Positions 14,037-42,601 of a stretch of 42,875 bases of DNA are shown here, piece after piece. The notes under the pieces are model-generated. The model made no database searches. It had not been told where the DNA came from and saw only the letters and a list, made by a program, of their open reading frames with translations. Within the stretch, counting starts at the first letter, position 1. The number at the start of each line of letters is the position of its first letter. The stretch lies in the IMG/VR virus record IMGVR_UViG_3300013119_000944, positions 1 through 42,875 of that record, one strand, 5' to 3'. This DNA is from a virus. Made by a program: the position numbers and the translations under genes.

Positions 14037-15206
14037 TTAGGTGAGATTCCTCATAAGCTTGTTATAGTGTTGATTAATAGACTTCTCAGAAAAGTTTTTT
14101 CTAATCTTTTCTTTCAAATCGTTAGCCCACTGTTTGGGAAGACTGGGCTTTTTCCGGAATCTCTGCAAACACTTCTTAGCATCATCTTCTATCGGTTCAG
14201 CCCATCTAGAATTTTCAACCCAAACTCTGCCGTCGGCTCGTGCTTTTGGAATTTCTGTTAATCTATGCTTGACAGCGATAAACTTTCCGTATTTTAGAAA
14301 ATCTAGGTGACCGCTCCATCCAGTTGCAATTACCGGTAGTCCACTAGCAGCAGCCTCTAAAAGAGGTAGCCCAAACCCTTCACCTCTTGTGAGTGATACT
14401 AGGGCTTTTACTGACGGTACTTTATAAAGCGAAGATACTTCTTCTTCAGACATTGCTCCATGCAAAAAATAAAATCGAGGATATGGTCCTTTTCTAACTT
14501 CTGATATTAGATTTCTCAATAATTTTTCTGTTATTGATCGATCAATTTTAGTATTGCAACCTGAGTTTGTCTTAAGAATAATTCCAACTTCAGAATCTCC
14601 GGTGAATGTCTCACACATCCACTTGACTGTATTGAATAAATTCTTTCTATCTGTATCCGGTGTCTGGCCTGTGAATTGAGCAAATAAAAGAAAATTAAAG
14701 CTTGTCGACAAGTCAATGTCAAGCGGGGAAAGATCGTCATTCGTTACTGACTTGTGATATGTTTCCGGAATTACATGAATAGGCACAGTAACACTACCTG
14801 TATCTTCAAGTACTTTTTTTGTATGTCTTGAGGGTACAACAACTGCAGTCATTTTATTACATCTGTCAATCCAATTTGGATTACACCTATCTGACTCAAC
14901 TGCAGCTGTAACACCTATATTGATGGTTCCCAAATTGGGATCCCACTCATCCGGTAATTGAACTTGTACAGTAACGTCCCACTTATTACCCTCTACAGGC
15001 TTGCATGTTCTACTTATGATATCGCCTATCAAACCGTCTTCAGACTCTTCGTTAAGCATCCAGGGTGTCATTCCCCATGACAATATTTGAGCTTCGACAT
15101 CGAAATCAGATCTAGATCTTGCCCATCTATAGATCTGTCTAGAGTGTACGCCGTATCCTGACATTGTCAGTAGTGGTGCTCTAACAAGTACTCTTTTTTT
15201 CATCAT
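14037..15206 (-). CDS. GT4-like glycosyltransferase (GT-B)
   Basis: A 389-residue protein. The N-terminal Rossmann half opens with KRVLVRAPLLTMSGYGVHSR, a usual GT-B opening glycine loop. The C-terminal half contains the retaining GT4 donor-binding signature EGFGLPLLE at residues 276-284 (E-x7-E), followed by AAASGLPVIATGWSG. A preceding FYFLHGAMS strand agrees with the fold. Two ATGs (15206 and 15203) are possible; the first gives a 4-base ATGA overlap with the upstream gene's stop. It is the glycosyltransferase gene nearest to the structural genes. The sugar donor and acceptor cannot be read from the sequence. Confidence 0.88.
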   Translation of the reverse strand: MMKKRVLVRAPLLTMSGYGVHSRQIYRWARSRSDFDVEAQILSWGMTPWMLNEESEDGLIGDIISRTCKPVEGNKWDVTVQVQLPDEWDPNLGTINIGVTAAVESDRCNPNWIDRCNKMTAVVVPSRHTKKVLEDTGSVTVPIHVIPETYHKSVTNDDLSPLDIDLSTSFNFLLFAQFTGQTPDTDRKNLFNTVKWMCETFTGDSEVGIILKTNSGCNTKIDRSITEKLLRNLISEVRKGPYPRFYFLHGAMSEEEVSSLYKVPSVKALVSLTRGEGFGLPLLEAAASGLPVIATGWSGHLDFLKYGKFIAVKHRLTEIPKARADGRVWVENSRWAEPIEDDAKKCLQRFRKKPSLPKQWANDLKEKIRKNFSEKSINQHYNKLMRNLT

Positions 15207-16450
15207 ATTTCTTGAATCTCCCAGAGCTTATTGTTACTCTGTTTATTTTCAACTAAGTCTAGCAAAGTGTCATGCCACAAGTCGATTGTTGTTTGATGAT
15301 TGAATTCAGAGTCTACGTACTCCTTTGCTTTCTTTCCCAATTCTACTCTCTTCTCATGTCCCATTTCGTACATGTCTAAGAAAGCTTTAGCAGTAGTCTC
15401 AGCTGAACAATAATCTTCATATATGTACGGTACCTGTTGAGAGCCTACCAATGACTTGAATTCTACTGGGAGTGCAATTCCGTTCTCTGATTCATCTCTA
15501 TGATCTACAACTTGACGCGTAAGTCCCCCTGTCTTGAGTGCGATAATTGGCTTAGCACATGACATTGCTTCTAGTGTTGACAAACCAAATCCTTCTGCAT
15601 AGCTTACATTGACACATACATCACTTATGTTGTGCAATATATTCATTTTTTCAAATTCAAGCCTGTCAGGTGAGAAAACAACGTTATCTTTTATGCCTAA
15701 TAAGTCACATGTGGCATATAAATTAGGTCCCTCAGGATCATCTGGTTGAGTATGCATCAGTAGTGATGCCTTCTTGTGACCATGCTTCTCTTCTAGCATG
15801 TCTATGAATGTCTTCCATGCTAATAGTAGATCATTGGGTCGCTTTCTTTTAGCGTTTCTATTTACCCAAAATGCTACAAAATGATCTGCTCTTTCACGCC
15901 CAATAACTTCATTTCTCCACTTGATTTGCTCATCTCGCTTGATGGGATAAAACAATCCGTCAGGTAATGAATGAGGAACAAAATTTGCTCTCCCCGGGGC
16001 TAGATCTTTTAAAAATTCATATGTAAGATAAGAGTGACAGTTAATTAAGTCTGTAGAATCATACAAAACTTTATTGAAGGTGGGAACAGGAAGATTATCC
16101 CATACATGCCAATAAGCAATAGGACAAACTTGATGTATTTCATCTTCCATTTCCCAGAGCCAAATAAAGAATCTGGGGTCTGTAAAGATTAGGACAACAT
16201 CTGGTTTTTCTGCGACTAAAGTTGATCTGATTAGCTCTCTATTGCCGAATCCATCAATTGGCTTAATAATAAAGTCATCATTGACAGTAATCATTCTATA
16301 ATCATCATGCTTAATTGCCGCGCCAAATTGTCGAAATGACCAGCAGCCCTTCTTTATTAAGCCGTCAATCAAAAATCTACTTTGACAGCCCACTCCAGAT
16401 GTGCTTAAAGCGTGATCTGAAAGCATTAATACTTTGTATTTTTTTGTCAT
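15203..16450 (-). CDS. GT4-like glycosyltransferase (GT-B)
   Basis: A 415-residue protein. It opens with YKVLMLSDHALSTSGVG, a GT-B N-terminal strand-loop. The central linker includes FWVNRNAKRKRPNDLLLAW, and the C-terminal donor domain carries EGFGLSTLE at residues 286-294 (E-x7-E) followed by AMSCAKPIIALKTGG. ATG 16450 has a GGTGAAAT ribosome binding site. It is paired with the 389-residue GT4 gene downstream by a 4-base overlap, so the two are likely translated together and may add consecutive sugars. Donor and acceptor are unknown. Confidence 0.9.
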   Translation of the reverse strand: MTKKYKVLMLSDHALSTSGVGCQSRFLIDGLIKKGCWSFRQFGAAIKHDDYRMITVNDDFIIKPIDGFGNRELIRSTLVAEKPDVVLIFTDPRFFIWLWEMEDEIHQVCPIAYWHVWDNLPVPTFNKVLYDSTDLINCHSYLTYEFLKDLAPGRANFVPHSLPDGLFYPIKRDEQIKWRNEVIGRERADHFVAFWVNRNAKRKRPNDLLLAWKTFIDMLEEKHGHKKASLLMHTQPDDPEGPNLYATCDLLGIKDNVVFSPDRLEFEKMNILHNISDVCVNVSYAEGFGLSTLEAMSCAKPIIALKTGGLTRQVVDHRDESENGIALPVEFKSLVGSQQVPYIYEDYCSAETTAKAFLDMYEMGHEKRVELGKKAKEYVDSEFNHQTTIDLWHDTLLDLVENKQSNNKLWEIQEI

Positions 16451-16504: not shown

Positions 16505-17329
16505 TTATTTGCAGTGTTCTGTATTAGCAAATTCACAAAACCTGCATGATTCTCTATTTTTTATAAAAAAGCTTCTTCTGATGGTGCTTATCATGCTAGT
16601 CACCATCTTTTGAGCCTTCTCTATAGACTTTGGCCCTGACGATACTTGTACAAGATCACACATATTCCCAGGTTTTCCGCCTCTTTTCAAAAGTATGAAA
16701 CCACACCCCACGTCTCGGAGCGGAATATCATTTTTAGTTGCCCAGTAGTCTTTATAGAGAATTATTTGTGCTTGAGTTAGAAAATCTTGCTTTTTTCTCC
16801 TATCCCAACCGTATGCTTTTGATGTCTTCCAATCAAGTATCCAGTATTTCCATGTGCCATTTTTTCTGGGTACTTTTATAATTACATCGATGTAGCCCTT
16901 GAATAGAGCATCTTTGCCAGGGATTTCCTCATAGAGCATTTCTTCTGCACTAACACGCTCCCACCCTGGAAACGTTTCATCTAAGTATCGTGGAATGTCA
17001 TCCCACATATTGGATGCCCATGTACACCACTCTTCAACAGGAGAGTATTTGTACCACCCGGGTTGCTTCTTAACCCAGTCGGGGTCATCAAATCCATTTT
17101 TTTCCCATGCATTTCTAATATTGTTCAGAAGTGCCTCTTTGGGAATGTTGCCGGTATTCAAGAAGCTTTCGCAACCTTCATGAACGTTGGTGCCAAAGTC
17201 TAAATAGGGTGATGGCTCAAAAATAGATATTTTATCAATATGTACTAACTTGTGACGCCATGGACATTCTTTCCAGCATCTCACTTCACTATAAGAAACG
17301 TGGGTCTTTCCGGTGGGTAGTTCTTTCAT
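16505..17329 (-). CDS. Cas4/RecB-like PD-(D/E)XK exonuclease with probable [4Fe-4S] site
   Basis: A 274-residue protein from ATG 17329. Earlier in-frame ATGs (17371, 17353) lie upstream of or at the likely transcription start of the promoter at 17358-17386, so 17329, with AAGG before it, is preferred. PD-(D/E)XK motifs in order are a GTNVHEGCE helix (H50), GYIDVI (D148), ILDWKTS (D166, K168) and QAQIILYK (motif IV helix). Cys22 in ECPWRHK, together with C262, C265 and C273 at the C-terminus (CRFC then C), forms the AddB/Cas4-type four-cysteine pattern for an iron-sulfur cluster. Such phage nucleases process DNA ends in recombination or replication. It is a functional outlier among sugar genes and has its own promoter. 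No Cas genes are nearby. Confidence 0.85.
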   Translation of the reverse strand: MKELPTGKTHVSYSEVRCWKECPWRHKLVHIDKISIFEPSPYLDFGTNVHEGCESFLNTGNIPKEALLNNIRNAWEKNGFDDPDWVKKQPGWYKYSPVEEWCTWASNMWDDIPRYLDETFPGWERVSAEEMLYEEIPGKDALFKGYIDVIIKVPRKNGTWKYWILDWKTSKAYGWDRRKKQDFLTQAQIILYKDYWATKNDIPLRDVGCGFILLKRGGKPGNMCDLVQVSSGPKSIEKAQKMVTSMISTIRRSFFIKNRESCRFCEFANTEHCK

Positions 17330-17357
17330 ATGCTGCCTTTTTTTATTGTTCATATGA

Positions 17358-17386
17358 ATTATAACATGCATTACAACTTAGTTCAA
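17358..17386 (-). promoter_or_regulatory. Strong sigma70-type promoter for the Cas4-like nuclease
   Basis: On the minus strand, TTGAAC (rc of 17381-17386) is followed by exactly 17 bases and then a perfect TATAAT (rc of 17358-17363). Predicted transcription begins near 17350, about 20 bases before ATG 17329. The -35 matches the host consensus TTGACA at 4 of 6 positions, the -10 at 6 of 6, and the spacing is ideal. The lone host-type promoter inside a late-looking block suggests early, host-polymerase expression of the nuclease and possibly of the genes beyond it. Confidence 0.65.
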
Positions 17387-17395
17387 GCAGCAGAT

Positions 17396-18262
17396 CTATA
17401 AAATATTTGCAGACAGCCATGTTGATACATACTTCTCTAGTCGTAACAATGGCATCCAACCTGTCTTCGCTGTGATGTTGGAAATATCTGCCAGGGTGTT
17501 CTTTGCTTCCCCGGGGCGGGCCGGTATATATTCTATTTTGCCGCCGAACATTTCTGCCAACTCATTTATAGAGTAATTTGTTCCCGTGCCTAGATTGAAT
17601 ACATCTCCTGAATATTCTTTTTCTGATAACAAAGTAAACCCACGAACTATATCTTTGACATGTGTAAAATCTCGTCGTTGAGTTCCGTCGCCAGTAACTG
17701 TCAATTTTTGACCCGCTCTCGTCAAATTTTCAAATATTCCTACAATTGTAGCGTATGGGCCGCTAGTTGGCTGTCTAACACCGTATACATTAAAAAATCT
17801 TGCTGTGACAGTACTCAGCCCATAGACTTCTGAGTACATTTTGCACAATTCCTCTCCTGTATATTTTGCAAATGAATACGGGTTTAGTTTGGGTCCACCG
17901 TAAGCAGAACTAGATCCTGCATATATTACTTTTGCATTTGAGCTTCTGGCAAATTCTAGAACTTCTGCAGTTCCCATTGCATCTATAGAGAAGTATCTAA
18001 GAGGATCTTCAAAACTTGGTTGAATTCTAGCTAGTGCAGCTAAATGATATATTACATCAAAGTTAGATTCAAATCGATATGTATTGAGATTGCGTATATC
18101 ATCAATCCAATATGTAACACCCTCTCGCTTGTTGTTTATGTTGCTTGATTCTGAGCACAGATTATCTATTACAGTAATTTCATTTTCAGGATCATACAAC
18201 AGCTGCTCAACCAAATGTGACCCTACAAAGCCCAAGCCTCCTGTCACTAATACTCTAGTCAT
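17396..18262 (-). CDS. Extended SDR, NAD-dependent sugar epimerase/dehydratase (UDP-glucose 4-epimerase-like)
   Basis: A 288-residue protein with the GGLGFVGSH nucleotide-binding loop (residues 8-16), an acidic residue after the second strand (VIDNLC), catalytic Ser in AGSSSAYGG (about 117-119), and Tyr129-x3-Lys133 (NPYSFAK). The C-terminal part shows the usual DGTQRRDFTHVKDIV and NLGTGTNYSINEL motifs. This is the NAD-binding GalE/WbpP-type architecture, but the exact reaction (4-epimerase, dehydratase or reductase) cannot be read. ATG 18262 overlaps the stop of the UDP-sugar dehydrogenase gene by 8 bases. It may supply epimerised sugars for the glycosyltransferases here. Confidence 0.85.
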   Translation of the reverse strand: MTRVLVTGGLGFVGSHLVEQLLYDPENEITVIDNLCSESSNINNKREGVTYWIDDIRNLNTYRFESNFDVIYHLAALARIQPSFEDPLRYFSIDAMGTAEVLEFARSSNAKVIYAGSSSAYGGPKLNPYSFAKYTGEELCKMYSEVYGLSTVTARFFNVYGVRQPTSGPYATIVGIFENLTRAGQKLTVTGDGTQRRDFTHVKDIVRGFTLLSEKEYSGDVFNLGTGTNYSINELAEMFGGKIEYIPARPGEAKNTLADISNITAKTGWMPLLRLEKYVSTWLSANIL

Positions 18263-19103
18263 TGCTAACCGCCCTCCCAGACATAGATTCCCAGTCTCTA
18301 TTTGATCTCAACTCATTGTTTTTTGTCTGTACAGAGGATAGCAAACTTGTGTCTACATTGTTTTTAGATCCAAAGTGTATCATTGCTGCTAAGTCTTTTG
18401 GTAAACAATGTCCCCCAAAAGCAAAGTCACCATCTGGACCGGGTACTGTAACATGACTCTGGCCAATTCTTGTGTCATAAAGTGCGTACTCACAGACTTT
18501 ATCATAGTCTAAGCTAGATGCAGAACATAATTGATACATTTCATTTGCAAATGTCACTTTAGTTGCTAAGAAGCAATTGATGAAATACTTTACCATTTCG
18601 GCAGTCTCTGACTTAGTTATGATAATTGGTATTTCTGGAAACGGTTTTCGAAACATTGATTTGACACGCTTGGCACCGCGGCAATTCACGTCAGGATTAC
18701 CACCAAGTATTATTCTTGTTTGATTAATAAAGTCATTGAATGAATTTGCCTCTGTCAAGAACTCAGGACTAAAGCATACATCTAGTTTGCTAGTGCTATT
18801 TATTCGCTTAGTAGTACCAGGTGGGACTGTCGACTTTATAACTAACGTGGGACTTTGATCTAGGGTGGTACATTCAGCTTCAATGCCTGCTATCACACTT
18901 TCTAAAAGTCTAGTGTCACACTCCCCTGACTTTCTCATCGGGGTAGGTATGCACACAAATATAATCTCAGATTTTCTGCACACTTCTTTGTGTGTACTAT
19001 TGCACTTAGACTCATCGATATCATAAGTCAATATATTGTAAAAGTCCTTGAGGCCCTCTCTAATAGCCGACCCCACAAATCCCTGCCCTACTATTCCTAT
19101 CAT
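18255..19103 (-). CDS. Short UDP-glucose/GDP-mannose dehydrogenase family protein
   Basis: A 282-residue protein from ATG 19103, which overlaps the upstream TGA as ATGA and has a GGAGAG ribosome binding site; an ATG at 19115 is in frame but lacks that support. The N-terminal Rossmann loop GQGFVGSA, the STVPPGTT and SPEFLTEA motifs, and the catalytic-cysteine motif FGGHCLPKD (Cys233) are intact, as is the central helix that follows (SSVQTKNNEL). The family is normally about 390-450 residues; the C-terminal UDP-binding domain is absent here. Either a partner supplies it or the enzyme works differently. UDP-glucuronate or a related uronic acid is the expected product class. Confidence 0.8.
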   Translation of the reverse strand: MIGIVGQGFVGSAIREGLKDFYNILTYDIDESKCNSTHKEVCRKSEIIFVCIPTPMRKSGECDTRLLESVIAGIEAECTTLDQSPTLVIKSTVPPGTTKRINSTSKLDVCFSPEFLTEANSFNDFINQTRIILGGNPDVNCRGAKRVKSMFRKPFPEIPIIITKSETAEMVKYFINCFLATKVTFANEMYQLCSASSLDYDKVCEYALYDTRIGQSHVTVPGPDGDFAFGGHCLPKDLAAMIHFGSKNNVDTSLLSSVQTKNNELRSNRDWESMSGRAVSND

Positions 19104-20038
19104 GCGTCTCTCCATAATTTCTTAACTGTTTTAGCTAGCACATCTTCAAACACGCTATTTGAAGTGTACCCCAAGTCTTTTAGTTTTTGATTAGTAATTG
19201 AGTATCTAAAATCATGGCCAAGTCTATCATCAACAAACTCAACGCTACTATCAAAGTCTTTTTCTAAAATATCACATATAAGGCGACATATCTGAATATT
19301 TGTAATTTCTTTTTTTCTAGTTATGTTGTACGTCTGATTTAGATCAGAGTTTTCCATTATATAGCGAATAGCAGCTACATTGTCTTCTACGTATAACCAG
19401 TCTCTGACGTTAGTACCGTCACCATATAATGGAATCTTTTTGCCAGATTTGAGCGATCTTACAATTGTGGGTAGAAGCTTTTCTGAATGCTGCCTTGGCC
19501 CAAAATTATTAGACGGTCTGACTATGATATATTCAATACCGTGTGTATTTGAATATGATTTTATGAGGTGTTCTGCAGCTGCTTTTGTTGCAGAGTATGG
19601 ATTCTTTGGATTGAATCTAGACACTTCATGGTGCGACCCATATTGTATCGATCCATAAACTTCGTCTGTCGACACATGAAGCAATTTAGTGTTTGTTTTT
19701 CTACATGCTTCTAGAATAGATTTAACACCCATTATGTTTGATTTGATGAATGCTTCTGATGAATCTATTGAGTTATCAACATGTGTCTCTGCTGCAAAAT
19801 TGATTATCCACGGGGTAGTAGTCAATATCGATTCTAGAGTACTTTGATTACAAATATCTGTTCTGCTTAGCACAAAATTAGAGTTATTCAAAGCAGCAGC
19901 TAAATTCTTTTCATTCGCTGCATATGTGAATTTATCAATTCCGTGTACCATGTAACCAGACTGTAAATACAGATCTGTTGCATGACTGCCGATGAAACCG
20001 GCACACCCTGTAATTGCTACTACTTGATTCAAACTCAC
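19100..20038 (-). CDS. rmlB: dTDP-glucose 4,6-dehydratase-like SDR
   Basis: A 312-residue extended SDR beginning at GTG 20038, which overlaps the previous stop (GTGA). Classical motifs are CAGFIGSHA (nucleotide loop), FAAETHVDNSI, the active-site HVSTDEVYGS (Thr124-Asp125-Glu126), Tyr148-x3-Lys152 (NPYSATK), RPSNNFGPRQ, and YGDGTNVRDWLYVEDN. These are diagnostic of the RmlB/RfbB group that converts dTDP-glucose to dTDP-4-keto-6-deoxyglucose. CDP-glucose 4,6-dehydratase is related and not strictly excluded. It sits next to the RfbH-type 3-dehydratase, which takes a 4-keto-6-deoxy sugar nucleotide. Confidence 0.88.
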   Translation of the reverse strand: MSLNQVVAITGCAGFIGSHATDLYLQSGYMVHGIDKFTYAANEKNLAAALNNSNFVLSRTDICNQSTLESILTTTPWIINFAAETHVDNSIDSSEAFIKSNIMGVKSILEACRKTNTKLLHVSTDEVYGSIQYGSHHEVSRFNPKNPYSATKAAAEHLIKSYSNTHGIEYIIVRPSNNFGPRQHSEKLLPTIVRSLKSGKKIPLYGDGTNVRDWLYVEDNVAAIRYIMENSDLNQTYNITRKKEITNIQICRLICDILEKDFDSSVEFVDDRLGHDFRYSITNQKLKDLGYTSNSVFEDVLAKTVKKLWRDA

Positions 20039-21354: not shown

Positions 21355-22169
21355 AACAAACTTATTCCTTCATTAATTGATATCTTTGGTTCAAATCCCA
21401 AATTGATTAATTTCTGTGTATCTAAAAACATGTCTTTTACCTGAACTATATTGTGAAAATCTGGTGGGGAGACATCAGTAATGACTGTTTTTGAATTTAC
21501 AGTATTAATTGCTTCATCAATCATATCACGAAACCTGTGCGGAATTCCGCTGCCAACATTATAAATCTGATCCAAGTCGCCTTCTTTTAGAATTAAATCA
21601 ATTGCTTGACAAACATCTGTTACATGAAGATAATCTCTTATAAAGTCTCCCCCGTGATATAAGTCGATGGGTTTGTCACACTTTATCTGATCTATTAGAT
21701 ACTGCAAAGCATTTTTCTTTTTAGAAGCAAGAATATCTCCTGTGCCGTAAACATTGCACAAACGTAGAATTCTATAATGTATATTGTACGTTTTACAAAA
21801 AGATTCTATTAGCTGCTCAGCACATAATTTTGTGATAGAGTAGAATCCCTTGGGTTTACAGCAGCTAGTTTCTAATGCCGGCAAAGTCGTATCACCGTAA
21901 ACAAACCATGAGCTGATGAAATTAAATACAACGTCTCTGTCTTTGCACTGTTCTAGAACTTCTAATAAGACACTCAAATTGGTAGAGACATCTTTATGAA
22001 CATCATCAAGCACATGGTAGTTATGTGTTGTACTTATGAAGTAGAGAATTGAATCAGACATTGGCTTTCTGGATTCTCTTGGGATCACAATACACTCGTC
22101 TGGTTTTAGATTTACATAGTTTGATCCTATAAAACCTGTCCCACCAAATACTGATGTTTTAGTCTTCAT
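21342..22169 (-). CDS. Extended SDR sugar reductase/epimerase
   Basis: A 275-residue NAD(P)-binding SDR with GGTGFIGSN (residues 9-17), a serine patch in NFISSWFVYG, Tyr110-x3-Lys114 (GFYSITK), RLCNVYGTGD, and GGDFIRDYLHVTDV. The N-terminal half is unusually short between strands 1 and 4. It overlaps the start of the RfbH-like gene by 13 bases. In 3,6-dideoxyhexose pathways, the reductase after the 3-dehydratase (RfbJ/RfbS-type) is such an SDR, so this is a candidate for that step. Sequence alone does not distinguish reductase from epimerase. Confidence 0.78.
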   Translation of the reverse strand: MKTKTSVFGGTGFIGSNYVNLKPDECIVIPRESRKPMSDSILYFISTTHNYHVLDDVHKDVSTNLSVLLEVLEQCKDRDVVFNFISSWFVYGDTTLPALETSCCKPKGFYSITKLCAEQLIESFCKTYNIHYRILRLCNVYGTGDILASKKKNALQYLIDQIKCDKPIDLYHGGDFIRDYLHVTDVCQAIDLILKEGDLDQIYNVGSGIPHRFRDMIDEAINTVNSKTVITDVSPPDFHNIVQVKDMFLDTQKLINLGFEPKISINEGISLLCQP

Positions 22170-32318: not shown

Positions 32319-32328
32319 ATTATTCTCC

Positions 32329-33123: not shown

Positions 33124-33134
33124 AGTATATCCTT

Positions 33135-34887: not shown

Positions 34888-36812
34888 GCAGAATCTAAAG
34901 TGTAGCCTAGCTTCTTAGCATTCTCACCACAGATTCTGATGACTTCAGATATTTCACTGTCTGTGAGTGTGCTATTTATTCTATTCTGCCTTTCTTCTTT
35001 TTCTTCAACACATATTTCGCCAGTAACTCTTCTAGAATCGAACATTGAATTTGACTTATTTGACAATTTGAGTGAAGTTGGTTTTAAAAGTGATTTTGTA
35101 TAACTTATTCCAACGTGCTTAGAAACTTCACGCATAACATCTTCTGTGTTTTCAACTAAATCTTCATATTTCACCAGCTTATACTGTTCTGAAGATGCAG
35201 AATTGTCTATAGCTAATTCTAAGCCAGTGTTGATAGAATGTGCAACATGCCTCAAGTTGAATGATTCGTCTCGAGATTCACACAATTTTTTCATACTAGC
35301 AACATTGTCAATAGGGTTTCTAAGCACGTGTACATAAGATGCATTAGTAAAGTTTTTACTTATCTGCGAAAAGAATCTTTCATTTTCTGGTGTTTTTTCT
35401 ACAACACGAAAATCTTTATTGAGCTTATGTGGATATGATAATGCGAACGCTGACGCGGCTACCTTGAATAATGAGAATGGAGCTTCGTCTAGCAGGTTCA
35501 TAGAAGCCCATTCGTAAGCATCAGTGAACTTCTGATATGCACCTCTATCTTTCCCCAATAGTAGGTATGGGCTGTAACCCGTAGGGCTTATAAGTTTCCC
35601 CAGCCAGCGTGATCTTGCCTCGTTGATCATTGTCCTGGATGGCACTGTTGCCTCAGGTGAGTGATGCTTCATCAGATGAGAATCAACTGGGAGTGCTAGT
35701 AAGCTATTGTGACCATCTAAGAGACACAACAATAATGAAGTACCGGCCTTCATGTTTCCAAATATAAACACAGGATCGTCCATGTTGCTAGACAAACTAG
35801 TTATTTTGTCGACATCAATATTGCTAGAATCAGACTTGCTAACTAAATCTGCAGAAAAATCAGATAGTGAATTCATTAGCTTGATGTATGATTCACCTCT
35901 TTTTGGCCATGATTTTTCTCTATTCACTAGAGATGATTCTAATGCACCCATAGTAATGCTACTTGGAAATATTGCGTCGACATCTTCGTCTTCATCCATC
36001 CACTCATTTCTATAGGACATCAATTCACTATCTGCTTCTGGAACATTATCTTCCGGGCTCCAGACTTCAGAAAAGGGTGACTGGTTTTTTGGCATGCTGT
36101 GTAATGCATCACCCTCTCGTTCAATAAGAACTTGTCCGTAGTCAACCTCTTTATCTTCGCGGCACAAATCATCATGAAATATTCTTCTATCCATGATGAT
36201 TAGATCTTTAGGTGCATCTATTTCATCAATTGCCTTAGCACATTGTATACCCGGGTCGTTCTTGGTTGGCAAATGATAATCATCAAATAGTAAAAATTTA
36301 TTGAACTTGTCTTTACAGTTATTCCAGTCAGATTTTACACCCTCGTATGTATGATCTCCGTCAATGTATATCATGTCGAAATTTTCTTTTACTTGAGGCA
36401 GAACATTGTTTGATGTTCCTTTTGCGAACTGAATCATTGAAAACCATGATTTGGGAAACACTTGTGTAAGATTTCTAACAAAATCTTCGTCCAAATTTGG
36501 ATCTATAGTTACAATTTTTCCCTCAATTCCCATATCATGAAATGCCTTAGCAGCACACATAGTTCCATACCCACGACCGAAGCCGATCTCAAGCATAGAT
36601 GTCAAGTTATATTTTCTTATTAGAGAATATATCAAGATACCTCTTTCATAGTTTGGCCTGAAGAAACACCCATGGGTTTTGAAGTAAGGATGACTAGCTT
36701 CTCTTTGCTTTTTTGCTGTAAATTCTCCTATGTAGTCGAAGTCACCCAAAGCTAAGTCTTCAAGGTTTATGTTCAATTCAGATAATTTATCTCTAATGTG
36801 TATATGTCTCAT
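34884..36812 (-). CDS. Methyltransferase-sulfotransferase fusion
   Basis: A 642-residue protein from ATG 36812 (a GAGAG ribosome binding site is upstream; an earlier ATG at 36851 overlaps the cupin gene). Residues about 60-235 are a class I methyltransferase: MLEIGFGRGYGT at 73-84, IVTIDPN, MIYIDGDHTYEG. A linker of about 110 residues, acidic and serine-rich, follows. Residues about 345-640 are a sulfotransferase: the 5'-phosphosulfate loop FIFGNMKAGTSLLLCLLDGH at about 348-367 and the 3'-phosphate motif HVLRNPIDNVASM at about 495-507. PAPS would donate sulfate. The pairing of methylation and sulfation on one chain suggests sequential modification of one acceptor, such as a glycan. No signal peptide or membrane anchor is seen. 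Confidence 0.87.
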   Translation of the reverse strand: MRHIHIRDKLSELNINLEDLALGDFDYIGEFTAKKQREASHPYFKTHGCFFRPNYERGILIYSLIRKYNLTSMLEIGFGRGYGTMCAAKAFHDMGIEGKIVTIDPNLDEDFVRNLTQVFPKSWFSMIQFAKGTSNNVLPQVKENFDMIYIDGDHTYEGVKSDWNNCKDKFNKFLLFDDYHLPTKNDPGIQCAKAIDEIDAPKDLIIMDRRIFHDDLCREDKEVDYGQVLIEREGDALHSMPKNQSPFSEVWSPEDNVPEADSELMSYRNEWMDEDEDVDAIFPSSITMGALESSLVNREKSWPKRGESYIKLMNSLSDFSADLVSKSDSSNIDVDKITSLSSNMDDPVFIFGNMKAGTSLLLCLLDGHNSLLALPVDSHLMKHHSPEATVPSRTMINEARSRWLGKLISPTGYSPYLLLGKDRGAYQKFTDAYEWASMNLLDEAPFSLFKVAASAFALSYPHKLNKDFRVVEKTPENERFFSQISKNFTNASYVHVLRNPIDNVASMKKLCESRDESFNLRHVAHSINTGLELAIDNSASSEQYKLVKYEDLVENTEDVMREVSKHVGISYTKSLLKPTSLKLSNKSNSMFDSRRVTGEICVEEKEERQNRINSTLTDSEISEVIRICGENAKKLGYTLDSA

Positions 36813-36825
36813 TATAATACTCTCA

Positions 36826-37170
36826 CTATGTTTGTACTCTGTCGTAATCATCTTCTAGCCTGACGATGTCATCTTCACCGAAATAGGCACCTAATTGTAC
36901 TTCAATTAGGTCTAGATTCTTGTTTCCTGTATTTCTAATTCTATGTTTAGACAGGGCGGGTATTTGGACAATCTTTCCAGGTGATACGTCTATTTCATGC
37001 CCGTCTAGAATTACTTTTCCTATGCCTGATAAAAATACCCACACTTCAGATCTATGATGGTGATATTGGTAGCTTAACTGTTGTCCCGGTAGCACTGATA
37101 TTCTTTTAACTTTGCAGTCATCTGGGTCGTGCAAAACAGTATACGTTCCCCATGGACGCTGATTAGTCAT
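36826..37170 (-). CDS. Phosphomannose isomerase-type cupin (stand-alone ManC/AlgA C-domain)
   Basis: A 114-residue cupin with the class II phosphomannose isomerase signature: RPWGTYTVL, KRISVLPGQQLSYQYHHHRSEVWVFLSG, and the C-terminal LIEVQLGAYFGEDDIVRLEDDYDR. In bacteria this domain is usually fused to a GDP-mannose pyrophosphorylase (ManC/AlgA, about 470 residues); here the isomerase domain stands alone. It converts fructose 6-phosphate to mannose 6-phosphate, feeding the GMD branch. ManB and ManC activities would come from the host. Confidence 0.88.
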   Translation of the reverse strand: MTNQRPWGTYTVLHDPDDCKVKRISVLPGQQLSYQYHHHRSEVWVFLSGIGKVILDGHEIDVSPGKIVQIPALSKHRIRNTGNKNLDLIEVQLGAYFGEDDIVRLEDDYDRVQT

Positions 37171-38113
37171 TGCTAGTGCTCATGAGCTTTTCAAACATTG
37201 TAACAAACGGCATAAATCCGGTAGGCATAGAGTATTGGGACACACTTTCATATGCATATTCTACATCAGGCTTAGCCATTTTTACATTTCCGGGTTGAAA
37301 TATTGAACCTGGGCTTAGAATTATATCAGATATTCCTACATCTGTTGACACAATTGGTGTTTTTGTAAGTGCACATTCAACAATTGATTGTGGTCCACCT
37401 TCAAACCTTGCTGCAACAATGTATAGATCTAAAATATTATAAAATGTATTGATGTCAGACATCGGCGGAAGCTCAGAATAGTAATACGGAATATTAGCAT
37501 CTTTCAATCTTCGAATGACATACTGACGTCGCCACCCTGCTAGAAGCACACGAACCTCTACATTCTTTGTCTTGTAGAAGTCTCTAAGCTCTTCAACAGC
37601 ATCACAAAAAAGATCTGGACCTTTTTCTAATTTGGGACTCTTAAGATCATGGCCCTCTGTGTCTCTCTGGAACGATCCTATAAGGAAACAATTGTCAGAA
37701 ATACCATATTGAGTTCGTATATCTTGACGTAACTTTTTAGATAACCCCTTCCATATGTTTTGATTTACCCAAAAAGGCTGGACCCATATGGGCTTTTTGG
37801 TATACGGTAATATTTGCTCTTTTGTTTTCTCACATGGGACATGATATAAATCGACGTACTTGTCTCTTTCTAGAAAATCTTCTTTCTGCTGTTTATCAAA
37901 TTTGTTAGGTACAATATGGTGAACAGATGCAACAACTTTTTTTTGTATGAGTAGATTGGGACTTACTTTATTCCAGCACCAGTCAGCCAACAACCAAATG
38001 ACACTCGAGTCTTCTATAGATGTTGATGTAGGGTAGGGTTGTGCCTGATTCCACTCAGTTACAAATCTATCACATATCCAGTCTTCTTTAGGTGCTAGTA
38101 CAAATACGCTCAT
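37163..38113 (-). CDS. GT4-like glycosyltransferase
   Basis: A 316-residue protein from ATG 38113; the frame extends to a TTG at 38125. Donor-binding signature ARFEGGPQSIVECALTKTP, then IVSTDVG, marks the GT4 C-terminal domain (E-x7-E in EGGPQSIVE). It also has a SFQRDTEG loop and VEVRVLLAGW. Overlap with the next GT gene is 26 bases. Donor and acceptor are unknown. Confidence 0.85.
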   Translation of the reverse strand: MSVFVLAPKEDWICDRFVTEWNQAQPYPTSTSIEDSSVIWLLADWCWNKVSPNLLIQKKVVASVHHIVPNKFDKQQKEDFLERDKYVDLYHVPCEKTKEQILPYTKKPIWVQPFWVNQNIWKGLSKKLRQDIRTQYGISDNCFLIGSFQRDTEGHDLKSPKLEKGPDLFCDAVEELRDFYKTKNVEVRVLLAGWRRQYVIRRLKDANIPYYYSELPPMSDINTFYNILDLYIVAARFEGGPQSIVECALTKTPIVSTDVGISDIILSPGSIFQPGNVKMAKPDVEYAYESVSQYSMPTGFMPFVTMFEKLMSTSND

Positions 38114-39008
38114 ATTCTTTCGCAATAGTGTTTATGTTGAGATAATCGCAAGATACATCGATGGTTGGCAAGTCTGTAATTTTAGATATATCTAATTTAT
38201 AGGGAGAATCATAGTCTAGAAGCTCATACTTGTACTCTTTATCTTCTTGGATAATCAATCCGTTATTTTTTACTATTTCTTTTGTGCCCCCTGAAGAAGA
38301 GCATATAACAGGACACTGCTGTGATAAAGACTCAACAACAACATTTGGACAGTGATCTAACCAAGCTAAGTGTATCATCCAGTCTGCTGCTGAATATATT
38401 TCTAGACATAAGCTGTGTGGAACTGAGCCTGCGTAGTATATACTAGAATTATCTACTATATGATCAGGGTTATTGCCTAACACAATGAGTCCTGAATTTT
38501 CATACTTTGAGTTCTTTTTGAGATTCAGAAATAGATCTATATTTTCTCTTAGGCGCTTTTGTCGATGCCAATTGGCAGAACAAACAAATAGGTAGTCATA
38601 TTTCTTTCTAAGTTTTAGTAAATTTTCATTAGAGGGTATCGATCGCTCAATAGCAATTCCATTTCTTATCACTGAGCCGACCCGGGCGCCCCAGTGATAC
38701 TCTGTCATTTTTTTATCAAACTCAGACTGCCATATGATGTGATCAAAATTATCGTATGCCCACTTGATATGTTGATTCTTGATATAAAACTCATCTGGCT
38801 TGAACCAAATTCCGTCTAGACGCTGAATTGTTTTGGCATTTGGGCGTGGAATAGTAACCGGCTCAATAAATGCTAGCAAAGAATCATACTGATCACTAGC
38901 TGGTACTAGCTCGTGGCCAAATGACATCAACTCGCTAGCTAGTCTTGCAGCAAATGTATTGGGTCCCGTGGACGAAGAAAAATTGACATTAGAAAAATGA
39001 ATATTCAC
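38088..39008 (-). CDS. GT4-like glycosyltransferase, GTG start
   Basis: A 306-residue protein beginning at GTG 39008, which overlaps the previous stop as TAGTG, with GGTGA upstream. N-terminal IHFSNVNFSSSTGPNTFAARL is the usual glycine/serine GT-B opening. The C-terminal half includes FVCSANWHRQKRLRENI, a LIVLGNN strand and HCPNVVVESLSQQCPVICSSSGGTKE, the GT4 donor segment, in which the first Glu of E-x7-E is replaced (DHCPNVVVE), so the motif is non-canonical. Donor is unknown. Confidence 0.82.
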   Translation of the reverse strand: MNIHFSNVNFSSSTGPNTFAARLASELMSFGHELVPASDQYDSLLAFIEPVTIPRPNAKTIQRLDGIWFKPDEFYIKNQHIKWAYDNFDHIIWQSEFDKKMTEYHWGARVGSVIRNGIAIERSIPSNENLLKLRKKYDYLFVCSANWHRQKRLRENIDLFLNLKKNSKYENSGLIVLGNNPDHIVDNSSIYYAGSVPHSLCLEIYSAADWMIHLAWLDHCPNVVVESLSQQCPVICSSSGGTKEIVKNNGLIIQEDKEYKYELLDYDSPYKLDISKITDLPTIDVSCDYLNINTIAKEYERICTST

Positions 39009-39934
39009 TAATTCACCATTGATTCAATTATATTGTAGTATTGTGATACACATCTATCAATATTCATAAATTCGGTGTCAATTTTTGATACATAGGATTT
39101 ATAATCTTTGACAATAATATCGATAGCATTAAGAAACTGATGAAATGTCTCGTACTCTTCGCCATGCTGTTTGCATAGCTCTTTTATTCCCCCTGTATCA
39201 GTGTGATATATAACAGGCATTCCTGACGCAGCGCCTTCAATATGATGCATTCCGCACGGCTCAAATTTGCTAGCTGTAACATATATGTCATGCTTTCTTA
39301 GTTCATTACCGAGTGATGCTCCGGAAAGCGGGCCAACAATTGATGTAGCGCTTGGAGAGTAGGTTTTATTATACCTACCTACATACGTAAATTCAAAGTC
39401 GTCATTGTCTTGAAGATAACGATCTATCTCTGTATACAAATCAAACCCCTTCATCCAGTTGTCAGACCAGTGATGTGTTACTAATTTCGGTTTATGTGTA
39501 ACTATTTTTCTGTTACCTGGATAGAAATGATCTGCATTGCAGCCATTATAAATTACATGATAATCTTTGTCGTAACCGGCGTTCACAAAATAGTCTGCCA
39601 ACCACTGGCTTATAAAAACTACTTCGTCAGAAATATTTGCTGAGTCTAGTAAAATCTTATCGATAAAGCTAGTATCTTTTCTTTTGTCGCATTCATTTAC
39701 TCTGTGTAGTATTTTAGTTTCTGGATGCGCTGATTTATATCTAGAAACATGCTCAATTGAGTATCCTATGTCACCAGGCCGAGGATCCATCAAAAATATT
39801 ATGTCAATATTTTCCTCAAGATTGAAAGTAACTTCATGATCATGATTGACAAGATGTTTGACCATAGCAGATAAAAATTGATTGCCGCCGCCGTACGGTT
39901 CATCTCGAGGGACTCTATTGAAGAATACTTTCAT
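39008..39934 (-). CDS. GT4-like glycosyltransferase
   Basis: A 308-residue protein. The N-terminus KVFFNRVPRDEPYGGGNQFL is a GT-B start with a PYGGGNQF glycine loop. Later YNGCNADHFYPG, FTYVGRYNK, and the donor-binding FEPCGMHHIEGAASGMPVIYHTDTGG (Glu at both ends of the E-x7-E region) confirm GT4. ATG 39934 shares four bases with the GT2 stop. Donor and acceptor are unknown. Confidence 0.9.
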   Translation of the reverse strand: MKVFFNRVPRDEPYGGGNQFLSAMVKHLVNHDHEVTFNLEENIDIIFLMDPRPGDIGYSIEHVSRYKSAHPETKILHRVNECDKRKDTSFIDKILLDSANISDEVVFISQWLADYFVNAGYDKDYHVIYNGCNADHFYPGNRKIVTHKPKLVTHHWSDNWMKGFDLYTEIDRYLQDNDDFEFTYVGRYNKTYSPSATSIVGPLSGASLGNELRKHDIYVTASKFEPCGMHHIEGAASGMPVIYHTDTGGIKELCKQHGEEYETFHQFLNAIDIIVKDYKSYVSKIDTEFMNIDRCVSQYYNIIESMVN

Positions 39935-40656
39935 GAAATAAAACCTCGTGTCCGGAGAAATTCACCCTCGGACTTCTGAAATTTGGCATCATCTGACTGG
40001 AATGTATTTGGGCTCATGTCTATAGAGTAGTGATATGCAACTATTGGCTCATAATGCCAATTGCCGGCGGCTTGATGTAATACTGGCAAGTATATTGTTT
40101 GATCACCTATCCTCTTGAAGTAATCTCCATCTGGACCTCTAAAGTTTTCATCTTTTACGTCTTCAATGATTCTTTTTCTAAACGTTTTAAGATGTGAAGA
40201 GACCCATTGATGTTTGTATGGATCTGCGGTTGTCGGCAATGACCGGGATATATTATTGTGTGTATAATCCCATCGATGTGCTGTCCAAATTGCGTCATAA
40301 TTTTTCTGCTGGTATCGATTGTTAATGATACTGAGCGCATCACAGTCACAAAGCCAGTCATCGCCGTCTAGCCTACAAATAATGTCATTCGAATCACATT
40401 CTTTCAAAGACTCAACAATATTCTTCACTTCCCAGTGCTTTTCACTATTAACTGTTAGCGATATTTTATCATCAGGGATAGCTAGCTGCTGCTTGATAAG
40501 GTTGACCATATCAGGAGTTCTATCTGTTGAACAGTCATCACGAATTATAATCTTCCAGTTTTCATGAGTTTGAAACCAAACTGACATTATACTTCTGGCA
40601 ATTGTAGCTTCGGCATTGAATGCCGGCATTATGAAAACAAATCGATTATCCTTCAT
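39931..40656 (-). CDS. GT2-family glycosyltransferase (GT-A)
   Basis: A 241-residue inverting enzyme. Motifs: FIMPAFNAEATIARSIMSV, WKIIIRDDCSTDRT and the metal-binding CRLDGDDWL at residues 94-102, the classical GT2 signature. ATG 40656 overlaps the upstream 651-residue gene by 11 bases. It probably acts alongside the adjacent GT4 enzymes. Substrates are not readable. Confidence 0.92.
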   Translation of the reverse strand: MKDNRFVFIMPAFNAEATIARSIMSVWFQTHENWKIIIRDDCSTDRTPDMVNLIKQQLAIPDDKISLTVNSEKHWEVKNIVESLKECDSNDIICRLDGDDWLCDCDALSIINNRYQQKNYDAIWTAHRWDYTHNNISRSLPTTADPYKHQWVSSHLKTFRKRIIEDVKDENFRGPDGDYFKRIGDQTIYLPVLHQAAGNWHYEPIVAYHYSIDMSPNTFQSDDAKFQKSEGEFLRTRGFIS

Positions 40657-42601
40657 TAGTGCTCTCTTGAGTGCGACCCAGCCATGACCATATATACTTT
40701 GGGTGATCTGATTTGAGTGTTACATGGGGGTTGGGTTTCGAAAAATCGATTGGAGTGTGAAATACCCAGCCGCCTGTTTTATCACGAAGTGCTTCTGATA
40801 GACTTTGAATGTCATCATCTGATACTTCTGACCATGGTTTTTGAAAAAACATGTTATTCTCTGCTGTATCTTCTTGTTCAATATTGTACAGACTTTGCCA
40901 ATGTTGTGACCAGTAGTCTCTGTATGTCTTAATCTTTCTAGTTAAATCAAACCATGAGTAATGATGCACTGTCGGAAGTAAATCAACACATCTTTCAAAC
41001 CACTTAGAATAATTTGTATGTGATACCGTGTCTCCCTCTAATGCCTTGATCTTGCAATTGTGAGCTTCAGTATTGTAGAAAGTAGCATGAGGAATTGGGT
41101 CATATGTATTAGAATCTATGTAGTCACATCCGTCTGTGCCTGGTTGAGCATATAGTGAACCATCTTCATCTTTAAGTCTCAGTGCACCTGGGATTCCGTG
41201 TGTAATGTGAGGCATATTTCTGCTTATCCTCCACTTCCATGGATTGATATCCATCCTGACTTTTTCTTCTCCTCCCCAGTATTCTACAACTGGAAGACAA
41301 ACAATGTCAATATTGCCCGGAAATGATATCATCAGATTCTTGATCTTTTGAAAATCATTCTCATGAACTATTTCGTCTGCATCTTGCTGCCAGCAAAAAT
41401 CCATACTGCATTTATCTCGTGCTAGTGCTTTGTTCGCGCCATCGTAAACTGCGAATCTTGGGTGCGACCAGTCTCTCTTGACTTGATGCGCATGTAAATT
41501 GTCTTCTTTGCTTGACCAATCTAGAAGTTTTTCCCATGTGCCATCTTTAGAGCCGCCATCCATAACTACGACTTCATCACAAAAGCCCAACATCGACTCA
41601 ATAGAAGCTTGCCATGGATAATTATTTTTATCACAGTCTAGAGTAGTTATATAGCCGCTAAGTGTTGGGCACCATTCCATATCTGATTTTATGCCGCCCC
41701 AGAATCTGTCTCTAGCTGCGTAAAGATAAGCCTCAGTGTCAAATTCATCAGATGTGTCAAACCATATCTCATCTTTATGCTCAACAAAATCATTGATGTG
41801 TAATTTACAACCCAATAATTTAGCTTCTATTACCATTCTGGGGCAGGTGTCACCGCCCTTAGGTAGATAGACAAAACCTTCAGATTTTGCCAAAGTTTCT
41901 AGAACATACTCGTAGGGTGTGTCCCAAAGTATCTGATAATCTTTATTATTATCTTCGCACCACTGTTTAGCATCATCTGCTCCCTTAATCCAGCTAGCTG
42001 ATCCTAAAACGACCCACCCCTTTCTCTCAATGTCTTTGTTTTTCTTCTTGAGGAGTTTGAGTGCTAAGAAAAATTTATCATCAAAGACAGAACTTAGAAC
42101 TACATTGTTGACTTCAGATAGGAACGGAAAGTATTCGTGATATCTCTCCATTTGTTTTTCTGACATCCACCAAAGTGATTTAGCACCGTAAAAGAAAGCT
42201 GATATCATCTTTCCATTTATCTGATCAACACAGTCACAATCAGAATTCTCTAACGCATAATGTTTTTCCGGAGATCTGTACTTGCAGAATTTATAATCAT
42301 ACTCTAAAATAGAGTATCTGATATTTGCGCAGATAGTTGGAATTAATTCCATATTCAAAGAAGCAAAATTTCCGAATATCCAATGACAATTCTGAGCTTC
42401 TTCTAGAAGCCTGAGATCTACATCACGAGCATGTAACTTAAAAACTTCAAACGGAGAGGCTTCTATTAGTGCCTCAGATGTCAATTCTGCTCCCCCTACG
42501 TAGTCTTCAACAAACATGTCTGAGACGAATATTATTTTTGCAGATTCAGGCACAGTTATTAGTTTACGCTGCTCTGAATCAAATGGGCTGTTACCAAACA
42601 T
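40646..42601 (-). CDS. Two-module glycosyltransferase (GT4-like + GT2-like)
   Basis: A 651-residue protein and the first gene of the transcribed block, with a GAGGAAA ribosome binding site before ATG 42601. Residues 1 to about 305 are a GT-B-like module (IIFVSDMFVEDYVGGAELTSEA at 23-44, GWVVLGSASWIKG, LPKGGDTCPRMVIEAKLLG at 246-264). Residues about 315-560 are a GT2-like module (EVVVMDGGSKDGTWEKL, WQQDADEIV with metal-binding Asp407/Asp409). Two different transferase folds on one chain suggest sequential addition of two sugars. It could set the first or branching residue. Substrates are unknown. Confidence 0.85.
   Translation of the reverse strand: MFGNSPFDSEQRKLITVPESAKIIFVSDMFVEDYVGGAELTSEALIEASPFEVFKLHARDVDLRLLEEAQNCHWIFGNFASLNMELIPTICANIRYSILEYDYKFCKYRSPEKHYALENSDCDCVDQINGKMISAFFYGAKSLWWMSEKQMERYHEYFPFLSEVNNVVLSSVFDDKFFLALKLLKKKNKDIERKGWVVLGSASWIKGADDAKQWCEDNNKDYQILWDTPYEYVLETLAKSEGFVYLPKGGDTCPRMVIEAKLLGCKLHINDFVEHKDEIWFDTSDEFDTEAYLYAARDRFWGGIKSDMEWCPTLSGYITTLDCDKNNYPWQASIESMLGFCDEVVVMDGGSKDGTWEKLLDWSSKEDNLHAHQVKRDWSHPRFAVYDGANKALARDKCSMDFCWQQDADEIVHENDFQKIKNLMISFPGNIDIVCLPVVEYWGGEEKVRMDINPWKWRISRNMPHITHGIPGALRLKDEDGSLYAQPGTDGCDYIDSNTYDPIPHATFYNTEAHNCKIKALEGDTVSHTNYSKWFERCVDLLPTVHHYSWFDLTRKIKTYRDYWSQHWQSLYNIEQEDTAENNMFFQKPWSEVSDDDIQSLSEALRDKTGGWVFHTPIDFSKPNPHVTLKSDHPKYIWSWLGRTQESTNEG

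Follow-up and report, generated by a model that had tools for sequence, protein, structure and literature searches.

A glycan-gene island with fixed bookends, an exchangeable interior and no export genes found in the records of a T4-superfamily phage lineage

Clusters of glycogenes are known from giant viruses, where they range from 6 genes up to 34 open reading frames (ORFs) in CroV (PMC9614988, PMC4691112). Chlorovirus glycosyltransferases (GTs) are mostly predicted to be soluble and cytosolic, eight of their genes are expressed early, and the glycogene clusters of mimiviruses are clade-specific (PMC9614988). Among phages, mycobacteriophage GTs glycosylate capsid and tail-tube proteins (Freeman 2023, via PMC12363180), and pelagimyophages and cyanophages encode 162 proteins related to lipopolysaccharide (LPS), 63 within a host-recognition cluster and others in twos or threes, for which the authors infer a change to the host O-chain (PMC7029224). 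Here we describe a block of 31 genes at positions 14037-42601 of IMGVR_UViG_3300013119_000944, an entire IMG/VR record of 42,875 bases without a completeness mark, which is referred to below as the window. The block is a hypervariable island between fixed bookends beside the baseplate genes of a T4-superfamily phage. Phages are usually credited with a few GTs at most.

All 31 genes lie on the minus strand, the gene of lowest coordinate at 14037-15206 and that of highest at 40646-42601, and they are tightly packed, with 26 of the 30 junctions overlapping or leaving no more than 12 nucleotides. The last genes of the block adjoin baseplate genes, those for gp25 and a gp6-type wedge protein starting at 9990 and 8141 on the same strand. 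The first-pass annotation, made from the letters of the window, had given exactly these limits for a 28-kb block on the baseplate strand, rich in nucleotide-sugar and tailoring enzymes and soluble throughout. That observation stands, and is now stronger than first reported: Pfam, NCBIfam and PDB matches confirm the families, and a Kyte-Doolittle screen found one gene (33871) with a single hydrophobic segment and none with two or more. The 14 GT genes it counted are an upper count by gene. Ten have Pfam support (14037, 15203, 26412, 27946, 33871, 37163, 38088, 39008, 39931 and 40646), and the gene at 40646 has two GT domains in its AlphaFold2 model. The other four (23690, 24516, 32329 and 33135) look like GTs by eye only and matched nothing in Pfam, PHROGs or NCBIfam at E<=0.01, while a comparison of 24516 and 32329 with PDB sequences gave no GT at E<=1.

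The nucleotide-sugar set comprises RmlA-, RmlB- and RmlD-types, a GDP-mannose 4,6-dehydratase, a short nucleoside diphosphate (NDP)-sugar dehydrogenase, two more epimerases and an RfbH/ColD-type 3-dehydratase. The tailoring set comprises a formyltransferase, an aminotransferase-like protein, two methyltransferase domains, a sulfotransferase, a radical SAM enzyme, a 2-oxoglutarate (2OG) oxygenase and two cupins. As most NCBIfam matches fall under the curated cut-offs, the family is surer than the exact substrate. The formyltransferase g048, for example, matches models that include an ArnA type and a dTDP-4-amino-4,6-dideoxyglucose formyltransferase, all under cut-off; the best solved relative of g060 is 3bcx, a CDP-4-keto-6-deoxyglucose-3-dehydrase (E 5.4e-76). 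The exonuclease-type gene at 16505-17371 is no glycan gene although it lies within the block. The genes and their fixed neighbours are as follows.

40646-42601, minus: g036, the 5' bookend, a two-domain GT of 651 residues, GT-B at about 19-311 and GT-A/GT2-like at about 311-640; Pfam GT2
39931-40656, minus: g037, GT2-family GT (PF00535, E 1e-16)
39008-39934, minus: g038, GT4-type GT (PF13692, E 5.1e-7)
38088-39008, minus: g039, GT4-type GT (PF00534, E 3.7e-9)
37163-38125, minus: g040, GT4-type GT (PF13692, E 3.4e-10)
36826-37170, minus: g041, cupin of the mannose-6-phosphate isomerase C-terminal type (PF01050, E 3.8e-33; matches the C-terminal part of GMP_PMI, under cut-off)
34884-36851, minus: g042, methyltransferase-sulfotransferase fusion (PF13578 at 87-192, PF13469 at 360-585)
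33871-34887, minus: g043, GT-B type GT (PF13524, E 3.7e-8), one hydrophobic segment
33135-33896, minus: g044, GT-like by eye; no match in Pfam, PHROGs or NCBIfam
32329-33123, minus: g045, GT-like by eye; no match in Pfam, PHROGs or NCBIfam, no GT in the PDB
31605-32318, minus: g046, methyltransferase (PF13578, E 5.7e-9)
31169-31600, minus: g047, WbuC-family cupin (TIGR04366, 43.7 bits, above the cut-off of 42)
30574-31185, minus: g048, short sugar N-formyltransferase (PF00551, E 1.1e-14)
29456-30571, minus: g049, radical SAM enzyme (PF04055, E 1.6e-25)
28727-29446, minus: g050, short DegT/DnrJ aminotransferase-like protein (PF01041, E 2e-17)
27946-28746, minus: g051, GT11, the fucosyltransferase family (PF01531, E 8e-32)
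27160-27888, minus: g052, 2OG-Fe(II) oxygenase of sporadic carbohydrate clusters (TIGR04324, E 2e-8, under cut-off)
26412-27176, minus: g053, GT2-family GT (PF00535, E 7.6e-15)
25418-26395, minus: g054, GDP-mannose 4,6-dehydratase (PF16363, E 4.1e-112; TIGR01472, 369 bits, cut-off 415)
24516-25436, minus: g055, GT-B-like by eye; no match in Pfam, PHROGs or NCBIfam, no GT in the PDB at E<=1
23690-24538, minus: g056, GT-A-like by eye; no family match, orthologues in the related phages G014 and G022
22971-23693, minus: g057, RmlA-type glucose-1-phosphate nucleotidylyltransferase (PF00483, E 2.8e-58; TIGR01207, 214.6 bits, cut-off 360.65)
22159-22974, minus: g058, RmlD-type reductase (PF04321, E 4.7e-27)
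21342-22169, minus: g059, short NDP-sugar epimerase/dehydratase (PF01370, E 2.1e-31)
20035-21354, minus: g060, RfbH/ColD-type pyridoxal-phosphate sugar 3-dehydratase (RfbH model, 365 bits, cut-off 423; FYPAHH motif, residue 219)
19100-20038, minus: g061, RmlB-type dTDP-glucose 4,6-dehydratase (TIGR01181, 338 bits, cut-off 365)
18255-19115, minus: g062, short NDP-sugar dehydrogenase (PF03721 and PF00984; GGHCLPKD at residue 234)
17396-18262, minus: g063, NDP-sugar epimerase (PF01370, E 9.8e-48)
16505-17371, minus: g064, PD-(D/E)XK nuclease, which opens the 3' bookend (PF12705, E 4.3e-20; phrog_1218 and phrog_69, exonuclease)
15203-16450, minus: g065, conserved GT4 of the 3' bookend (PF00534, E 4e-14)
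14037-15206, minus: g066, conserved GT4 of the 3' bookend (PF00534, E 1.1e-8), homologues in the phages immuto, Mel-JY01 and RM378
12954-13787, minus: g068, conserved flank gene with a weak hhalign match to T4 gp55
8141-10493, minus: baseplate wedge genes g072 (gp25) and g073 (gp6-type), the constant neighbours on the downstream side (PF04965; phrog_261, phrog_219)

A longer record, G001 (IMGVR_UViG_3300008952_002784; 136,953 bases, 121 ORFs called), is the same virus: window positions 1-42860 align to its positions 72491-29629 at 99.87%, and it adds 29.6 kb past the block as well as 64 kb on the side of the tail genes. It carries a Gp23 capsid gene (PF07068, E 4.1e-76), portal, prohead protease, head-tail adaptor and tail sheath genes (phrog_213, phrog_207 and phrog_23 among the matches), and likewise a PhoH gene and genes for gp25 (PF04965) and gp6-type wedge proteins. 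Because Gp23, portal, prohead protease, sheath and gp25/gp6-type genes are present, the phage belongs to the T4 superfamily and is of the myovirus type. The far side of the block, where the first-pass annotation had allowed for a bacterial chromosome, is phage (PhoH, fibre-like genes, Gp23 capsid, portal, sheath); with phage genes flanking both sides, a bacterial chromosomal context is rejected. The window and G001 differ at 54 positions, only six of them within the block, which is therefore stable within the strain.

The block has no sign of the machinery with which bacteria export such glycans. O-antigen and capsule loci resemble it in Rml, Gmd, RfbH/ColD, GT2, GT4, GT11 and formyl- and methyltransferase genes, but differ from it in their exporters and initiating transferases. 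Family searches were made of 36 related records (4.96 Mb in total, the 137-kb G001 among them, some perhaps fragments) alongside 14 control genomes. The flippase family PF01943 (Wzx) was found in 0/36 records at E<=0.001 and in 13/14 controls; the initiating transferase PF02397 (WbaP) in 0/36 and 9/14; the polymerase PF04932 (Wzy) in 0/36 and 9/14; and the membrane part of ABC exporters, PF01061, in 0/36 and 14/14. The other initiating transferase family, PF00953 (WecA), was found in none of 23 records, immuto, Mel-JY01 and RM378 among them, against 12/14 controls. The lack of exporter and initiating transferase genes that had been noticed in the window thus extends across the lineage as far as the records reach. 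Judged without reference to families, 324 of the 337 ORFs in the 12 whole blocks described below have no Kyte-Doolittle segment, 12 have one and a single ORF has three (120 residues, on the opposite strand in the relative G031); none of the 337 has four or more.

An exporter encoded elsewhere in the phage was considered and rejected within the 16 records screened, some of them partly. Six ORFs with four or more hydrophobic segments in these records are g119-family proteins (883-1658 residues, in G001 and five relatives), probably the tape measure. Five further small or odd ORFs of this kind all lie outside the blocks, two in G015 and one each in G021, G022 and G031; to the eye the G021 ORF resembles a phosphate permease and one G015 ORF a site-2 protease, both of them close to contig ends. 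The ORF in G031 (L181/L170) has 311 residues and 11 hydrophobic segments; its place is between g070 and g072, and it was not seen in the 15 other screened records.

The same arrangement recurs in other phage contigs, which argues that the block is not a chance assembly. Profiles of the G001 genes found the whole block, g036 to g066, in 12 of 16 records, where it spans 14-40 genes and 13.6-36.1 kb; in the remaining four (G004, G005, G007 and G010) it is cut or otherwise arranged. One ORF in G031 alone breaks the single orientation of the 12 blocks. The order is PhoH, the fibre-like g034 in many, g036, the variable genes, g062/g063 in most, g064, g065, g066, g067, g068 and the baseplate genes. 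PhoH lies on the far side in 10 of the 12, the other two (G006 and G025) starting at g036 and so having no sequence beyond it. The g064 nuclease comes immediately before g065 in 10 of the 12, and in G025 and G026 a g062-type gene intervenes.

Between these bookends the genes vary. When the 12 phages are compared in all 66 pairs, the interior genes in common, as a fraction of the smaller set, average 0.25 (median 0.20), against 0.84 (median 0.88) for the eight flanking genes beyond g066. The 289 interior proteins make up 156 clusters, and 109 of these occur in a single phage. The closest pair, G014 and G022, nevertheless has 26 interior genes in common at 68% identity, so the block is also inherited vertically. 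A Pfam scan of 141 interior representatives (three clusters could not be referenced and 12 found only in G001 were excluded) gave 106 families, the first 25 of which include epimerases, GT2, GT4, FkbM methyltransferases, aminotransferases, cytidylyltransferases, radical SAM enzymes, formyltransferases and NeuB. Some relatives thus have interior genes of the NeuB and cytidylyltransferase families, such as serve to make sialic-acid-like sugars.

The g065 GT4 was confirmed in at least 587 stretches of IMG/VR, 80 of which were retained as a set. g036 was found at 41 phage loci and, in a scan by two peptide patterns of bacterial and archaeal genomes (one each for 84,980 species), at three loci; those three contigs bear other genes of these phages and are therefore taken to be phage contigs within metagenome-assembled genomes (MAGs). 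Closer relatives of the baseplate form 27 loci (L001-L027). Twelve of these have at least 5.2 kb upstream, three of the twelve being the virus of the window itself; one or both of the bookend GT4s lie there in every one of the 12, and both in 11. Among 50,697 phage records searched by tblastn, the g073 baseplate protein matched only six, four of Flavobacterium phage immuto, Microcystis phage Mel-JY01 and the 484-kb uncultured LR756508. The capsid protein matched 2,491, of which the best were immuto, Mel-JY01 and LR756508, followed by Rhodothermus phage RM378 and one more uncultured huge phage. RM378 carries the GT pair; immuto, in which the pair is gp181/gp180, and Mel-JY01 have the nuclease and GT4 pair with more GTs behind, an IMP dehydrogenase gene separating nuclease from GTs in Mel-JY01. 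The Mel-JY01 homologue of g065 (L092:13442-14933) is annotated as two neighbouring genes in different frames.

The charge of the GTs bears on where they work. Where the acceptor is lipid-linked, the GT is often a basic peripheral membrane protein. The phage GTs are acidic, with a median isoelectric point (pI) of 6.07 for the GT4 type (n=44, six above 8) and 5.33 for the GT2 type (n=23, none above 8). Those of three MAGs, titled Halobacteriovorax, Methylococcaceae and Pelagibacter (best 30 loci per family), have medians of 9.02 (n=27, 20 above 8) and 8.81 (n=21, 15 above 8), while dehydratase-type proteins hardly differ, at 6.08 in phages (n=56) and 6.28 in MAGs (n=25). Mann-Whitney p values, for homologous proteins that are not independent, are 6.4e-8 for GT4, 8.4e-8 for GT2 and 0.34 for the dehydratase type. 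Broken down by MAG, the dehydratases have medians of 5.46, 6.50 and 9.06, the third MAG being basic throughout. Eleven GTs (three basic, eight acidic) and five dehydratases were left out of the MAG set as lying on phage-like contigs, two of which were judged by BLAST and the others by hand; with the GTs restored, 22/30 GT4 and 16/29 GT2 proteins are above pI 8. The acidic pI of the phage GTs speaks against lipid acceptors and favours a soluble one, but is neutral between protein and DNA, as the T4 DNA GTs have pI 6.1 (a-gt) and 9.05 (b-gt).

Predicted structures place the bookend enzymes in families. The AlphaFold2 model of g036 (pLDDT, the predicted local distance difference test score, 91.4; 30 sequences) has a GT-B half with matches among GT4 folds (Z 20.1 at best, over 275 residues, 3.5 A), and its other half is predicted to be GT-A from Foldseek matches to GT-A enzymes. 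The peptide S-glycosyltransferases SunS and ThuS stand high in the Foldseek list for g036 but were given no weight, their TM-scores being about 0.2-0.4. The model of g065 (pLDDT 89.3) is a canonical GT4, a GT-B fold with the GT4 C-terminal domain, and ties structurally with MshA (Z 36.0), chlorovirus B736L (36.0) and sucrose-phosphate synthase (35.9); 3c4q gave Z 36.0 over 358 residues. By profile g065 matches B736L at E 5.6e-15. We dropped B736L as evidence of a protein acceptor, since what B736L itself glycosylates is unsettled (PMC9614988). The link is further weakened because g065, used as a single sequence, matches three other GTs better, and T4 AGT likewise matches B736L in HHpred (PMC6024577, Table 3). 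A fold in common is uninformative about the acceptor.

We propose that the block is a phage 'serotype' island. Its nucleotide-sugar enzymes and soluble GTs would build a branched, decorated glycan of bacterial type, sugar by sugar, in the host cytosol. Judging from the gene families, the sugars would include 6-deoxy- and 3,6-dideoxyhexoses, a GDP-linked 6-deoxyhexose, for example fucose, and sugars bearing N-formyl, O-methyl and sulfate groups. The likeliest acceptor would be a protein of the virion that is synthesized in that cell, for instance one of the fibre, baseplate, tail or capsid, in which case particles would exit sugar-coated and no flippase, polymerase or lipid carrier would be needed. 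The bookend enzymes g036, g065 and g066 would make a common inner or linking part, and the exchangeable interior would set the outer sugars. The absence of exporter families from the 36 records, the soluble blocks, their fixed place by the baseplate in the close relatives, their variable interior and acidic GTs, the occurrence of g036 in phage-like contigs only (within the pattern-limited scan) and the precedents for virus glycosylation all lead us to this proposal. We give about even odds to a strain-specific glycan being assembled in the cytosol on a virion protein. Tentatively, with somewhat less than even confidence, we suggest that a widespread T4-superfamily lineage has an antigen system of its own, a domesticated O-antigen-like locus that dispenses with export and in which invariant bookends frame an exchanged interior of 10-36 genes specifying a strain-specific virion glycan, bacterial in style and put together entirely in the cytosol.

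Several results weigh against a virion protein as acceptor. No acceptor or sequon was identified, and we found no virion mass spectrum for these phages in the open-licence literature. Co-expression with virion genes is unsupported: in six records a ATATTTAT-like motif lies within 70 nucleotides upstream of 28/103 virion-family genes and 82/1483 others, but of only 1/167 block genes. This motif may be the late promoter of the lineage, and block genes without it would either be transcribed by read-through from upstream or be expressed at a different time. The T4 late box TATAAATA occurs 0 times in the window against 4.7 expected. The g065 fold is equally near GTs that act on small molecules and on sugar phosphates. 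The place by the baseplate is not universal either. Among 18 loci numbered with the more distant branch that have at least 7 kb of sequence, L040, a 46%-identity relative placed in the wrong group by our numbering, has the GT4s within 10 kb beside the baseplate, and the other 17 do not; in G004 and G007 the nuclease-GT-GT core and sugar genes, while farther away, still lie between PhoH and the baseplate. The GT core of immuto and that of Mel-JY01 lie in a replication or lysis region, away from the baseplate. Finally, the median pI of LPS GTs from E. coli is no higher than 7.44 (n=10), which keeps the pI argument from being absolute.

The first-pass annotation had concluded that the glycan is probably built in the cytosol, with a virion protein, DNA or a small precursor as its acceptor. 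The acidic GTs fit this, but the lack of a phage exporter does not itself mean that the glycan is not exported, because the phage could feed the WecA/Wzx/Wzy of its host. The enzymes would then supply the host lipid-linked pathway (WecA, Wzx, Wzy or an ABC exporter supplied by the host, and WaaL) and alter the O-antigen or capsule, blocking superinfection or keeping progeny from sticking to debris. The contents of the block do resemble an O-antigen locus, its variability is the expected outcome of competition over surface antigens, and the GT clusters of pelagimyophages and cyanophages have been read in this way in print (PMC7029224, PMC7824862). We nevertheless consider remodelling of the host surface, the main rival reading, rather unlikely. 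The GTs of the phages are not basic as those of the MAGs are, though the E. coli enzymes temper that contrast; an initiating transferase was found in none of the searched records; and g036 was in no bacterial surface locus reached by the pattern-limited scan. The seroconversion modules known to us (Gtr, Oac) bring membrane proteins, and the blocks have none of that kind.

Of the acceptors named at first, the virion protein is favoured. An oligosaccharide placed on a hydroxylated phage base as protection from restriction, in the style of the T-even GTs, seems to us improbable. In its favour, a PD-(D/E)XK nuclease adjoins the GT pair and replication genes are nearby in immuto and Mel-JY01; T4 AGT shares the GT-B fold (Z 16.5 to the GT-B half of g036) and is likewise acidic; and a 2024 title speaks of virus GTs placing diverse glycans on DNA. 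The thymidylate synthase/dCMP-hydroxymethylase family PF00303 occurs in 8/23 records, but the other 15, of possibly incomplete length, include G001, G008 (257 kb), G015 (236 kb), Mel-JY01 and RM378. As G008 and G015 carry the whole block, a hydroxymethylated base is probably no general partner of it, unless these records are incomplete. Moreover, g065 has no profile similarity to T4 AGT, and in our judgement 13.6-36 kb of variable O-antigen-like tailoring exceeds what base protection needs. A free product of the infection, whether small molecule or oligosaccharide, or else the glycosylation of proteins of the host, is more doubtful still, and we think it very improbable. Radical SAM, 2OG-oxygenase, formyl- and sulfotransferase genes, all present here, occur in natural-product clusters too, and g065 is as near in fold to MshA, and near BshA, which both act on small molecules. 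However, families of carrier proteins, synthetases or efflux were not seen among the block genes, the small precursor has no supporting find, and such a product would leave the fixed place by the baseplate unexplained.

Other features of these genomes were seen in passing. g062 has 286 residues, keeps the catalytic Cys motif and stops after the central domain, and relatives have the short form too (277-320 residues, strong matches). In the gap upstream of g036, window 42671-42875 (G001 29500-29887) holds AT-rich 17-bp tandem repeats with a unit like AATTAAACAATTACTTA, a possible regulatory or recombination site at the island edge. Outside the block, g017 of G001 (L056:9692-10219) belongs to the RfaE-like heptose-1-phosphate adenylyltransferase family, with strong scores in 7 other records of 16, and may feed the same glycan. 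In the flank, g068 was tried as a late sigma factor like T4 gp55 (hhalign E 0.034, but probability 1.5%), which remains a guess; it matched nothing in PHROGs or in the PDB at E<=1. Of the 54 differences between the window and G001, 38 cluster at 861-1301 inside a laminin-G-type fibre gene, which suggests rapid local divergence, or recombination, in what is likely a receptor-binding gene. DUF444, SpoVR and PrkA genes, a bacterial stress and sporulation trio, stand side by side in the phage (G001 g019-g021, L056:10796-15301). The portal gene g093 of G001 (L061:1179-6833) is a single ORF of 1884 residues whose portal matches are accompanied by segments of HNH endonuclease and helicase type, which suggests inteins or homing insertions. 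g119 of G001 (L062:10031-15007), with 1658 residues and 10 hydrophobic segments, is likely the tape measure; for the moraphages PMC12619734 reports that none was found.

If the virion-glycan proposal is true, free viruses would show variable, bacteria-like sugar coats to lectins, grazers, host debris and the binding proteins of rivals, and the island would also be a source of soluble rare-sugar enzymes. Homologues of the bookend GTs in cultured Flavobacterium, Microcystis and Rhodothermus phages offer a direct entry for experiments.

Among known systems, the glycogene clusters of mimivirus, moumouvirus, CroV and chlorovirus are alike in bringing together viral nucleotide-sugar genes and mostly soluble GTs (PMC9614988, PMC4691112), in tailoring that includes sulfate genes, and in clade-specific contents, as with our 109 single-phage clusters of 156. 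The present island differs in belonging to a tailed phage and in its fixed bookends beside the baseplate. For mycobacteriophages, the paper citing Freeman 2023 names one essential capsid GT per phage (Che8 gp110, Corndog gp38) rather than a 31-gene island. The pelagimyophages and cyanophages are, like ours, T4-like aquatic phages with a hypervariable region in which GTs and sugar genes lie near tail fibres (PMC7029224), but the baseplate protein g073, with its six matching records, sets the present lineage apart. The moraphages are large aquatic T4-related phages with four putative GT orthogroups, PhoH, gp25 and gp6 in their core genome, which also count a Rhodothermus phage as a relative and for which variable islands are named as future work (PMC12619734). 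The available part of that paper describes no glycan island, bookends or exporter test. The moraphages may be the same lineage as the phages described here, or its sister.

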